64,000 bases of DNA, taken from the NCBI RefSeq assembly GCF_001676785.2, contig NZ_CP015910.2, forward strand, positions 2,356,001 through 2,420,000, in the 5' to 3' direction. This document shows, one piece after another, positions 23,850 to 29,252 of this stretch. The first letter of the stretch is position 1; each line of letters opens with the position of its first letter. This DNA comes from Brachyspira hyodysenteriae ATCC 27164. Its GTDB lineage: Bacteria > Spirochaetota > Brachyspiria > Brachyspirales > Brachyspiraceae. Position numbers and translations under genes: made by a program. The notes under the pieces were generated by a model. The model had not been told where the DNA came from, made no database searches, and saw nothing but the letters and a program-made list of their open reading frames with translations.

Positions 23850-25529
23850 ATGAATAATATGAAATCTATAAACAGAGCAAAAGAAATTATATCCATAATA
23901 ATAGCTTATGGATTTAGAGATATTATAGCGGTAACTCCAATATTAAAAATAATAAAAAATCCAATAGATAAAATAAATATAAAATATAAAGGAGTAGACT
24001 TAAGAAAATATACTAAAGCCGAAAGAATAAAAATGGCTTGCGAAGAATTAGGCACTACATTTATTAAATTAGGACAAATACTATCAAACAGAAGCGACAT
24101 ACTTTCAAAAGATATAACAACAGAATTGAGCAAACTTCAAAATCATGTAAAGCCTTTTGATGAGAATACAGCCAAAAGCATCATAGAAGAAGAATTAGGA
24201 GGAAAAATAGAGGATATTTTTGAATCATTCGAATTAACTCCTAAAGCAAGTGCTTCTATATCTCAGGTTCATACTGCTGTATTAAAAAATGGAGAAAAAG
24301 TAGCTATAAAAGTAAAAAGACCTAATATAGAAGAAAATATACTCACAGATATAGAAATTATAGTATGGCTTTCAAATATAATAGAAAAATATAATGAAGA
24401 ATTTGCATTGATGCAGCCTCAGAAATTAATAAGTGCTTTTAAAGCTCAGCTTTTACAGGAATTGGACTTTAATTTTGAAAAGAATAATACTCTAAAATTT
24501 GCCAAATTCTTTAAAAATAATAAAAATATAAAAATAGCAAAAGTATATGATGAATACAGTACAAAAAATATATTAACTATGGAATATATAGAAGGAATAA
24601 AAATCTCTGATATAGCAGAAGATGATACTAGATATGATAGAAAAAAACTTGTTTCTATAGGTGTAGATGCTGTATTGGAGCAGATATTTATGCTAGGTTT
24701 TTTCCATGCTGATCCGCATCCTGGTAATTTAATGGCTTTAGAAAATAATGTACTATGTTTCTTAGATTTCGGTATGATAGGATTTATTCCGCCGAACTCT
24801 AAAGATGCTTTTTCTTCTTTAATTATGAGCATAAGTTCTGCTGATTATTTGGAATTGTCTAAATCGATACTTGATTTATGTTATCATGGAGAAATAAATA
24901 ATATAGATGAATTTAATATGGCTATATTTGTGTTAGTAAGTAAATATGTTGATATGCCTTTAGATAATATTAATATAGAAGATGTATTTAATGAACTTAT
25001 AGGTATAATAAGAGAATTCCGTTTAACTTTACCTAGCAATATTATGCTTTTAATAAAATCTTTGATAGTTCTTGAAGGAGTTGCTAGGAATTTAGATAAA
25101 GATGTAAAATTGATAGAACATATTAAGCCTTTTGCTTTTAGATACGTTAAAGAACAGATGAAGCCTGATAATATATTAAAGCAATTCAAAAAATTATTCT
25201 ATGATTATAGTTATATAATAAAAGAATTTCCATCAGACTTAGAACATTTAGTATCGGTTATAAAGCAAGGAAGTGTCAAAATTCAGCTTGAACATAAAAA
25301 GCTAGAATCATTAGCATCTACTTTAGACGGTTTAGCCGACAGATTAAGCTACTCTATAGTTTTAGCTTCTTTAATATTGGCAAGTGCTTTAATAATAACA
25401 AGTAAAATGCCTCCTCTTTATCATGGTACATCTGTTATAGGAATGATAGGCTTTGCTTTATCAGCTATAATGGGATTTATTATGATTATAAGCAGATTTA
25501 TAAAGAAGTATGTTAAAAAGAATAATTAA
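23850..25529 (+). CDS. ubiB: ABC1/UbiB-family atypical protein kinase
   Basis: 559 residues. The family signature is complete: KLGQ within TTFIKLGQILSNRSD (71-85), the Ala-rich loop ASASISQVH (133-141), the lysine block VAIKVKRP (151-158), HADPHPGN (286-293) and the metal-binding DFG (306-308). Two C-terminal membrane spans (about 505-550) anchor it. In E. coli UbiB supports ubiquinone synthesis, probably as an ATPase acting on lipid precursors. No ubi/men genes are nearby, so the isoprenoid-lipid substrate in this anaerobe is unknown. An ATG three codons downstream is an alternative start. Confidence 0.88.
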   Translation: MNNMKSINRAKEIISIIIAYGFRDIIAVTPILKIIKNPIDKINIKYKGVDLRKYTKAERIKMACEELGTTFIKLGQILSNRSDILSKDITTELSKLQNHVKPFDENTAKSIIEEELGGKIEDIFESFELTPKASASISQVHTAVLKNGEKVAIKVKRPNIEENILTDIEIIVWLSNIIEKYNEEFALMQPQKLISAFKAQLLQELDFNFEKNNTLKFAKFFKNNKNIKIAKVYDEYSTKNILTMEYIEGIKISDIAEDDTRYDRKKLVSIGVDAVLEQIFMLGFFHADPHPGNLMALENNVLCFLDFGMIGFIPPNSKDAFSSLIMSISSADYLELSKSILDLCYHGEINNIDEFNMAIFVLVSKYVDMPLDNINIEDVFNELIGIIREFRLTLPSNIMLLIKSLIVLEGVARNLDKDVKLIEHIKPFAFRYVKEQMKPDNILKQFKKLFYDYSYIIKEFPSDLEHLVSVIKQGSVKIQLEHKKLESLASTLDGLADRLSYSIVLASLILASALIITSKMPPLYHGTSVIGMIGFALSAIMGFIMIISRFIKKYVKKNN

Positions 25530-26409: not shown

Positions 26410-27210
26410 ATGGCTACTAAAAAAACAGAAAAAGCAGCTGAAGATACCATCAAAAAAACTGCTGCTAAAAAATCAGCAACTACAAAAAAAGCTGATGAAG
26501 AAAAAGCCGAAGGTGCACCAAAAAAAGCCGCTGTAAAATCAGCTGCCGCTAAAAAAACTACTTCTGCTGCCGCTAAAAAAACTACTGCTAAAAAAGCACA
26601 AACAAAGAAAAAATCAGAAAAAGAAATAGAAGAAGAGATAGAAGAAATAAAAGAAGAAGCAAAAAAAGATGAATATATTCCTGATGAAGTTGATATAGTA
26701 AGAGAATTGCCTGACAGATATAAAGAAACAAAATTAGTACTTATGATGCGCGACCCTGAATGGTGCTTTTTCTATTGGGATATATCTGATGAAGATATAA
26801 ATTATCATTCTTTGAAAGGAAAAAGAATATCTGTAAGAATATTCCATGTATTTGGATATGATATTACTAATGGAGAAATCCATAAAGAAATAGAAGTTAA
26901 TTATATCTATGGTGATAGATATGTTAATTTAGCTATGCCTCATGCTTATTTTATTGGTGAATTAGGATACTATGATGAAAATAATAGATTTATAGTATTA
27001 GCAAGAAGTAACATGATTTATGCTCCTAGAGATTCTATGAGCAATGTTTATGATGAAGAATGGATGGTTAATGAAGAGATTATAAAACTTTTGAAATCTC
27101 CTAAAGCTTTAAGAGAAAGCTTATCATCTGCTACAATATTTGAACTTATAGATTTAAGAAGAAATCATTTAGCAGGTTCATCATCTTCACTCTTTATGAA
27201 AAAAAATTAA
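26410..27210 (+). CDS. DUF4912 protein with a histone-like Lys/Ala-rich N-terminus
   Basis: 266 residues. The first ~75 are Lys/Ala/Thr-rich (KKTTSAAAKKTTAKKAQTKK), like the basic tails of bacterial histone-H1-like proteins. An acidic linker (EKEIEEEIEEIKEEAKKDE) follows. The DUF4912 domain (about 95-225) is recognised by LPDRYKETKLVLMMRDPEWC, FFYWDIS and VNLAMPHAYFIGELGYYDEN. The last 30 residues are disordered. It is cytoplasmic; the domain's function is not established. The basic tail could bind nucleic acid or anionic polymers (inference). Confidence 0.85.
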   Translation: MATKKTEKAAEDTIKKTAAKKSATTKKADEEKAEGAPKKAAVKSAAAKKTTSAAAKKTTAKKAQTKKKSEKEIEEEIEEIKEEAKKDEYIPDEVDIVRELPDRYKETKLVLMMRDPEWCFFYWDISDEDINYHSLKGKRISVRIFHVFGYDITNGEIHKEIEVNYIYGDRYVNLAMPHAYFIGELGYYDENNRFIVLARSNMIYAPRDSMSNVYDEEWMVNEEIIKLLKSPKALRESLSSATIFELIDLRRNHLAGSSSSLFMKKN

Positions 27211-27283: not shown

Positions 27284-29029
27284 TTAAATATTAATTAATG
27301 CCGCTAAAAATAATATATAAAGCGGAGAATCTATTAGTATAGAAAATAAATGTCTGCTTGTTATTATCTTCTTCTTCATCACTACAAATGAAATTATACT
27401 GCTATATACAATAGGGATACAGTATTTCAATTTATTAATTTCTAATGGAAACTTACCAATAATAATACCTACCAACATAAATAAAGCTAAAACAATTGGT
27501 ATTATACCGGTTATAAATGCTAATTTATGAGAATCTATATATGTAGTTAAAGTTACAGCTCCTGCTATTTTATCGCTTTGAGAAAATTTTATTTCAATCA
27601 AAGCCTGTCTTATAAACATAAATAAAAATACTAAAAAAGTAGAGAATAAATATAAAAATAATTTTTCTTTTAATATATCTCTATGCAAAATGAATATAGA
27701 GCCATTCAATAACACAGTAACTGCAACAGATATTACTATAGCTTTAAAAGGTATAAGTTTTTTAAATAATCTGAAGAAAAAAGAACTTTCAAATCTAGAT
27801 TTATTTTCAAAACTTATATTATACCCCATTCCAAGCAAACTCGAAAGTATCGAAAGCATTAATATACCTACATTAATCTTATAGGCAAAATAAAACATAA
27901 GTACAGCACTCATCAGTATTAAAAATCTGAAAAATGTTTTATACTCTTGATAAAATAAATATCTTCTTTTATCGCTTATTTTTATGGTATAATTACTGTA
28001 TCCATTTTCTAAACTCATATATAGATAGTATAAAGCTATTATAATGCCTATTTGATATTTAAAAGGCTGTGATAATATATCGTATACGGCATATGACATT
28101 AAAAAAGCACCTACTGAAAAAAATATATAACCATAATTTAAAAAATCAAATATTCTAGATATAAATCTATAGAAATTAGTGGCATATTTATCTTTTATAG
28201 TTTGTGCTATATCTTCTATAAGCCAATCTGGAGTGGATGCCCCTGCCATTATACCTATATTTTTATAGTTTGATAAGTCTATCTTTTCCAAATCTTCTTT
28301 ATATTCAACATAAAATGCTGGTTTAATAGATGATGCTATATTATATAAATTTCTAGTATTAGAACTTTCAGAACCGCCTATTACAAGCACAACATCATTT
28401 CTTTTTGCTATCTCTAATACCTCATTTTGTCTCTGTTCTGTAGCAGCACATATAGTATTTTTAATAATTATTTCTGTATCTTTATATTTATCCTGTATTT
28501 GAGCCACAAATTTATCAAAAGCAGATTTCTGTAAAGTAGTCTGGGCAACTATTAAAGCTTTTTTAGAATCATTAGGAAGTTTATTTAAATCTTCATCTTT
28601 ATAAACAACATATACATCATCAGCATATCCGCATACACCAACAATTTCAGGATGAACAGGATTACCTATAACTATAACTCTATATCCTAGAGAGCTATAT
28701 TTTTTAACAAGACCTTGAATTTTAGCAACATATTTACAGGTAAGATTTACTATTTTTTTGGCATGGCTTGATAGAGCTTCCCTTCTTTTAGGAGATATTC
28801 CATGAGCTCTTACAATAACAGTTTTTCCATCCAAGACAGACATATCCTCATCATCTTCATAAGTTTTAACTCCTATATTTTCCAACATATCAAGAGTTTG
28901 AGGATTATGTATCAAATGTCCATCTATATATATATCGCTATTTTTTTTGGAAGCCTGAGAAAAAGTATTTTCCACAGCATACTTCACACCATCGCAAAAA
29001 CCAGCAAATTTACCTATATCTACATTCAT
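27284..29029 (-). CDS. ispH: IspH fused to a UbiA-like membrane prenyltransferase domain
   Basis: 581 residues in one uninterrupted frame, twice the usual IspH length. Residues 1-285 are 4-hydroxy-3-methylbut-2-enyl diphosphate reductase, the last step of the MEP isoprenoid pathway. They have the three cluster cysteines (Cys12, Cys98, Cys194), HPE (126-128), His41, His76, the QTT segment (163-165) and GGSESSNTRNL. Residues 295-581 hold seven to nine membrane spans. SQSDKIAGAVTLTTYID (484-500) resembles the second Asp-rich motif region of UbiA prenyltransferases; the first (NDxxD) motif is degenerate at ENGYSNYTIKISDKRR. It follows rpmB by 31 bases and has no clear Shine-Dalgarno. IspH is certain; the activity of the second half is inference. 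Confidence 0.88.
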   Translation of the reverse strand: MNVDIGKFAGFCDGVKYAVENTFSQASKKNSDIYIDGHLIHNPQTLDMLENIGVKTYEDDEDMSVLDGKTVIVRAHGISPKRREALSSHAKKIVNLTCKYVAKIQGLVKKYSSLGYRVIVIGNPVHPEIVGVCGYADDVYVVYKDEDLNKLPNDSKKALIVAQTTLQKSAFDKFVAQIQDKYKDTEIIIKNTICAATEQRQNEVLEIAKRNDVVLVIGGSESSNTRNLYNIASSIKPAFYVEYKEDLEKIDLSNYKNIGIMAGASTPDWLIEDIAQTIKDKYATNFYRFISRIFDFLNYGYIFFSVGAFLMSYAVYDILSQPFKYQIGIIIALYYLYMSLENGYSNYTIKISDKRRYLFYQEYKTFFRFLILMSAVLMFYFAYKINVGILMLSILSSLLGMGYNISFENKSRFESSFFFRLFKKLIPFKAIVISVAVTVLLNGSIFILHRDILKEKLFLYLFSTFLVFLFMFIRQALIEIKFSQSDKIAGAVTLTTYIDSHKLAFITGIIPIVLALFMLVGIIIGKFPLEINKLKYCIPIVYSSIISFVVMKKKIITSRHLFSILIDSPLYILFLAALINI

Positions 29030-29060: not shown

Positions 29061-29252
29061 TTATTTAGCTTTAGATATTTTATTACCTTTAATACATTTA
29101 GTGCAAACTAATGCTTTTTTTACAGAACCATTTACTTCTATTTTAACATTTTGTAAATTAGCATTAAAAGAACGCTTAGTTTTTATATTAGAATGGCTTA
29201 CACTATGACCATTTTGTTTGCCTTTACCGCATATTTCACATACTCTTGCCAT
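29061..29252 (-). CDS. rpmB: 50S ribosomal protein L28
   Basis: 63 residues from the ATG at 29252, preceded by GGAGG at the right distance; the frame runs four codons further into the ribosome site, so the longer start is rejected. [21 protein letters not shown] and [10 protein letters not shown] carry two CxxC pairs, i.e. the zinc-binding form of L28. Confidence 0.95.

Follow-up and report, generated by a model that had tools for sequence, protein, structure and literature searches.

Proteins in which IspH is joined to a UbiA-type domain are already known as a kind. A total of 47 IspH-UbiA fusions were reported by Rao et al. (2015; PMC4746011), who placed them in sulfate reducers and assigned the UbiA part to PT_UbiA_5; the full-length protein was not obtained on expression. 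Spirochaetes are not mentioned in that paper, and a literature search on IspH-UbiA returned nothing beyond it and one paper citing it. The UbiA of A. fulgidus binds two Mg through Asn68 and Asp72 of the first Asp-rich motif (motif 1) and Asp198 and Asp202 of the second (motif 2), and Asn68, Tyr139, and Ser140, which surround the reacting bond, have been proposed for catalysis (PMC4106721). The fusion described here, treated as new in the initial annotation of the locus, belongs to a kind that has been in print since 2015. What is new, judging by the sequences compared, is a spirochaete branch that carries the fusion and in which the UbiA site is remodelled yet constrained.

The fusion gene lies in the window, a stretch of 64,000 nucleotides from Brachyspira hyodysenteriae ATCC 27164 (NZ_CP015910.2, positions 2,356,001 to 2,420,000), to which all coordinates below refer (Table 1). 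It is read on the minus strand from an ATG at 29029 through 581 codons to a stop at 27284–27286, and one chain holds IspH (residues 1–279) followed by a UbiA-fold membrane domain (residues 292–581). The joining of IspH to a multi-span domain in one frame, first noted from the letters of the DNA, is therefore real, and the SQSDKIAGAVTLTTY noted in the multi-span domain is also present, at about residues 483–497. It had been asked whether all Brachyspira share the fusion; all 26 sampled genomes of the genus do, each as a single open frame of 577–594 amino acids. Because these 26 genomes agree, a frameshift, chance, or an assembly artefact can be dismissed as the source of the fusion.

Table 1. 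Features of the ispH-ubiA-like locus, in positions of the window, with the evidence for each.
Feature	Position	Strand	Evidence
Whole fusion gene ispH-ubiA-like, 581 aa	27284..29029	-	Single open frame; fused in 26/26 genomes of the genus
IspH domain, residues 1–279	28193..29029	-	Pfam LYTB (PF02401) 2.7e-79, 266.7 bits against a cut-off of 24.5; invariant columns; Z 33.5 to E. coli IspH
UbiA-fold membrane domain, residues 292–581	27287..28156	-	PF01040 weak; predicted fold, Z 17.2–17.5 to A. fulgidus UbiA (4tq4)
First Asp-rich motif position, residues 342–346, NGYSN (canonical NDxxD)	27992..28006	-	Alignments
Tyr403, equivalent of catalytic Tyr139 of A. fulgidus UbiA	27821..27823	-	Kept in 50/51 fused proteins
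Second Asp-rich motif position, residues 474–490, RQALIEIKFSQSDKIAG	27560..27610	-	Alignment, invariance
rpmB (L28), directly upstream of the fusion gene	29061..29252	-	Pfam Ribosomal_L28 1.8e-19; landmark shared with G066 and G074
Convergent DUF4912 gene, downstream	26410..27210	+	Pfam DUF4912 3.9e-26; landmark shared with G066 and G074

The IspH half had been described as complete on the strength of Cys12, Cys98, and Cys194, and this description is borne out by Pfam LYTB, by TIGR00216 (259 bits against a cut-off of 188), and by the cysteine positions themselves. Besides these three cysteines, the half keeps His41, His76, His126, Glu128, Thr165, Ser222, Asn224, and Ser265, which we take to match the corresponding positions of E. 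coli IspH. The cluster-binding cysteines and the substrate-binding residues form invariant columns in alignment A5. By alignment and model, every active-site residue of IspH is accounted for. Since the residues of an active IspH are all present and the fusion gene is the sole IspH match in the window genome (G000), the IspH half of the fusion should be the maker of IPP and DMAPP in this organism.

The identity of the second half is weak by sequence and clear by predicted fold. PF01040 gives 18–21 bits on the window protein, below the curated cut-off of 34.2, and 48–52 bits, above that cut-off, on three relatives in the same aligned family (L097, L101, and L106). An AlphaFold2 model of the whole protein, made with a 16-sequence alignment, has a mean pLDDT of 85.4 and a pTM of 0.77; its first half compares with E. 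coli IspH at the Z given in Table 1, and its second half with A. fulgidus UbiA plus DMAPP (4tq4) at Z 17.2 over 262 residues. The second half modelled alone has a pLDDT of 83.4 and a pTM of 0.82, and the top six chains in its fold comparison are all UbiA homologues (Z 15.8–17.5 over 248–259 aligned residues), the best reaching Z 17.5 over 257 residues. Next in the ranking are trans-prenyl synthases, described as having the same fold as UbiA (PMC4106721), at a Z of about 14; values up to about 13–14 for helical proteins may reflect a common arrangement, and the UbiA rows lie above that. The initial annotation had called this half UbiA-like, had proposed a structural comparison with UbiA, and had named a better fit to another membrane family as the result that would speak against it. 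UbiA is the best match both by profile and by fold, so another membrane family is rejected and the second half is, as modelled, a UbiA fold.

According to the sequence searches, the fusion occurs in no fewer than eight families of spirochaetes and in one bacterial group besides. Besides the genus of the window, it was found in two of the three sampled genomes from other genera of the same family, in two genomes of the same order, and in one of another family (G036). Fusions of weaker similarity occur in families f20, f28, and f41, while an IspH search of 393 genomes of the phylum, combined with reading of the protein tails, added f9, f38, f46, and more members of f20; a more divergent UbiA-like tail is attached to IspH in G201 (f31). 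Almost all other IspH proteins among the matches listed are about 300 amino acids long. Outside the phylum, the fusion was detected in L097 and eight further genomes of the same group, and a scan of genome contigs, aimed at the published Desulfobacterales fusions, returned spirochaetes and one other bacterium. The 52 sampled fusions make up a single clade, interrupted by one loss, in a tree built from 79 IspH domains (support of the fused clade 95/87), and one gain plus one loss suffices, a single origin that holds only against the unfused IspH sampled, which are mostly from spirochaetes.

The loss is represented by G074, which belongs to the same genus as the fusion-bearing G066. Its IspH protein is retained and stops where the UbiA domain would start, and no UbiA match was found elsewhere in the G074 genome. 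The gene order rpmB, ispH, and convergent DUF4912 is common to the window, G066, and G074, and the DUF4912 neighbour in the window shares 53–62% identity with that in G074. Because G074 keeps IspH in the same synteny without the UbiA half, this half is dispensable for IspH.

Several further arrangements were encountered during the survey. G036 encodes two IspH proteins, a standalone one (L168), placed by the tree with that of E. coli, and a fused one (L079), and from this pair it would seem that the fusion can play a role of its own. In G118, an IspE-like GHMP kinase lies in frame before IspH (L128:1118-2845), an IspE-IspH fusion of two MEP enzymes, and the same genome also carries an IspH-UbiA fusion (L062). 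Standalone UbiA-like proteins in the group of L097 (L109, L110, L111, and L112) have a degenerate motif 1 (for example, WDAGNGITRED and SFDRIIDAG) and an intact motif 2, and may possibly be relatives of the fused domain that stayed unfused. Beyond the family of the window, most spirochaetes have the fusion gene immediately after type II secretion genes (J, K, PilM-like, M, and one unassigned gene; L062, L066–L068, L071, L072, and L083–L095). Because this linkage is absent from the family of the window, it tells little, and conserved neighbours were discarded as a functional hint.

The UbiA half was aligned with canonical UbiA enzymes at 10–20% identity, a level at which individual positions outside the motifs are uncertain. 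At motif 1, the window protein has lost the canonical NDxxDxxxD: Asn342 is kept, and the two aspartates are replaced by Gly343 and Asn346. Asn342 and Asn346 are invariant in the clade of the window, and position 2 of the motif (the equivalent of Asp69) is not Asp in any of the 51 fused proteins, which agrees with the degenerate state of this motif noted in the initial annotation. A preserved Asp in the second motif had been named there as a sign that would support activity; of the two in DxxxD, the last is kept as Asp486, and the first is replaced by Phe482, giving FxxxD. Across the fused proteins, the last Asp is present in 51/51 and the first in 7/51; Arg474 and Gly490 are as invariant as Asp486. 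A second carboxylate besides Asp202, either at position 198 or three residues before it, was found in 49/51, and in the window it is Glu479, seven residues before Asp486. The conserved catalytic Tyr of TM4 is present as Tyr403, which is adjoined by Asn404 in the clade of the window. Of the three residues put forward as catalytic in A. fulgidus UbiA, two are matched in position, by Asn342 and Tyr403. Counts for the equivalent of Ser140 were left out because the columns beside Tyr139 were split by the alignment method.

Three clades of fused proteins differ in what remains of the site. In clade I (L097, L100–L106, and L121), Asp or Glu occupies position 198 in 9/9, and most of motif 1 is gone. 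In clade II, which includes most other spirochaetes, Asp or Glu is found at position 72 in 22/30 and Ala or Gly at 198 in 28/30. In clade III, that of the window, all 12 proteins have Asn at 68 and 72, Tyr at 139, and Asp at 202, and none has Asp at 198, where Phe, Thr, Ser, or Asn stands instead, leaving one of the five motif aspartates. Bacteriochlorophyll synthases have no acidic residue at 198 and are nevertheless active, so the loss of Asp198 alone is no proof of inactivity. The related chlorophyll synthase 9sau has DFKSVEGD at the place of the first Asp of motif 2.

With most motif aspartates lost, the UbiA half may be a pure membrane anchor, a catalytically dead UbiA relic that only localises IspH. 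That G074 has cleanly shed the entire domain and retained IspH is in line with such a role, and membrane localisation is also among the likely roles of the UbiA part listed by Rao et al. (2015; PMC4746011). However, an anchor has no need for invariant Asn, Lys, Arg, Gln, and Asp residues inside helices. In the UbiA half of clade III, 15 of the 21 invariant positions are polar (odds ratio 4.0, p 0.003), those within helices including Asn342, Lys429, Asn442, Arg474, Gln475, and Asp567, and helical polar positions are conserved more than apolar ones (p 0.01). Across 25 genomes of the genus, pairwise dN/dS has a median of 0.113 in the UbiA half, close to the 0.082 of the IspH half; both are simple pairwise estimates with dS near saturation in many pairs. 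Decay of the UbiA half is rejected on this ratio and on the invariant polar residues. Conserved polar residues in the helices are, at the level of sequence, predicted by a ligand site and not by a plain anchor; the polar conservation could also come from packing or from contact with IspH. The conservation of Arg474, Asp486, and Gly490 throughout the fused proteins likewise argues against an anchor. Because the deviations of the UbiA half from canonical UbiA are themselves conserved, the anchor derived from a dead UbiA, one of two roles put forward in the initial annotation, is disfavoured, and we regard it as unlikely but still worth weighing.

The other role put forward was the coupling of isoprenoid supply to prenyl transfer. 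Were the UbiA half a canonical Mg-dependent prenyltransferase, such as the one that makes the quinone of the organism, this would agree with the UbiA fold and with the metabolic context of the genome. One trans-prenyl synthase match is present in the window genome, and a prenyl diphosphate synthase is present in all eight genomes tested. At the sensitivity of the searches used, no other UbiA-family match was detected in the window genome, and the other sampled genomes of the family resemble it in this as in their IspH, menA, and trans-prenyl synthase matches. On the other hand, these searches also detected no menA match in the window genome, motif 1 is replaced in all fused proteins, and motif 2 is reduced to one Asp in the clade of the window. 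Moreover, fusion carriers outside the family possess separate UbiA enzymes above the Pfam cut-off, and for this reason the fused domain is not simply their quinone enzyme. Since the first Mg site is replaced by an amide pair and motif 2 would hold at most one metal, the UbiA half is unlikely to be an aromatic prenyltransferase of the canonical two-Mg kind that serves quinones. Canonical prenyl transfer by the UbiA half is thus doubtful, and its service as the organism's quinone-making enzyme seems very improbable. As first worded, neither of the two roles in the initial annotation fits. An ABC1/UbiB-like gene (23850–25529) sits in this genome, which lacks a menA or canonical UbiA match at the search sensitivity given above; as a partner of the fusion it is unsupported, given that G074 keeps ABC1 without the UbiA half.

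The reading that we favour, with confidence that is about evenly balanced, is a functional and separable UbiA-fold module that would bind isoprenoids and is possibly catalytic, combined with an IspH held at the membrane. The fusion would then consist of two working modules in one membrane protein, inherited as a unit. The UbiA module may tether IspH on the cytoplasmic side of the membrane and may keep a polar cavity that binds, and perhaps acts upon, an isoprenoid or its phosphate. In this cavity, the amide pair Asn342/Asn346 would take the place of the Mg site of motif 1, and Glu479 and Asp486 of motif 2 could bind one metal at the most. The second function would be fed by the local product of IspH and could be lost without the loss of IspH.

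Alternatively, the UbiA cavity may serve as a non-catalytic product sensor: prenyl diphosphate bound there would control IspH activity by feedback, or the cavity would route substrate. The conservation of the predicted cavity residues without a full metal site is compatible with a sensor, as are the single polypeptide and its one apparent origin. However, the IspH of G074 exists without the domain, so that control of this type would be dispensable, and we consider a sensor improbable. A bolder proposal, to which we attach a low probability, is that the UbiA half, devoid of motif 1, acts directly, by a one-metal or metal-free mechanism, on DMAPP/IPP or farnesyl-type products supplied by its own IspH half, and that spirochaetes of the Brachyspira type gain a new membrane isoprenoid from this reaction.

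In the MEP pathway IspH is essential, and it is also a drug target; in the fusion it forms part of a membrane protein, and the genus concerned has gut pathogens of pigs and of people among its members. A natural comparison is offered by G066 and G074, two close relatives that share the gene neighbourhood and of which only G066 has the UbiA half, and the fused proteins provide a graded series from a nearly complete metal site to a nearly absent one. Together, the pair and the series therefore make the question raised in 2015, the role of the UbiA half, testable.

Compared with known systems, the fusion of the window resembles those of Rao et al. (2015) in domain order, approximate size, the C-terminal position of UbiA, and occurrence in anaerobes, and we infer a common descent. 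The reported fusions carry two DXXXD motifs (PMC4746011), whereas neither is complete in the clade of the window. The IspH-RPS1 fusions (NF000907; Rao et al., 2015) likewise consist of IspH with a C-terminal extension, and NF000907 is the best NCBIfam match of the IspH half; unlike that of the window, their extension is made of S1 RNA-binding repeats and includes no membrane domain. The decaprenyl-phosphate phosphoribosyltransferase Rv3806c uses the UbiA fold for another chemistry with a single Mg (PMC10994848). Its structure (8j8j) resembles the UbiA half at Z 12.6, but it keeps the Mg-binding Asp of motif 1 and is without IspH. The UbiA prenyltransferases (A. fulgidus 4tq4, A. pernix 4od4, E. 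coli UbiA, and MenA) share with the window protein the nine-helix-type fold (Z 16–17.5), the Asn of motif 1, the conserved Tyr, and the last Asp of motif 2. In contrast to the fused proteins, all 51 of which have replaced it, they have Asp at position 2 of motif 1, and where the clade of the window has Asn at position 5 of motif 1 and Phe, Thr, Ser, or Asn at the first position of DxxxD, the prenyltransferases have Asp.
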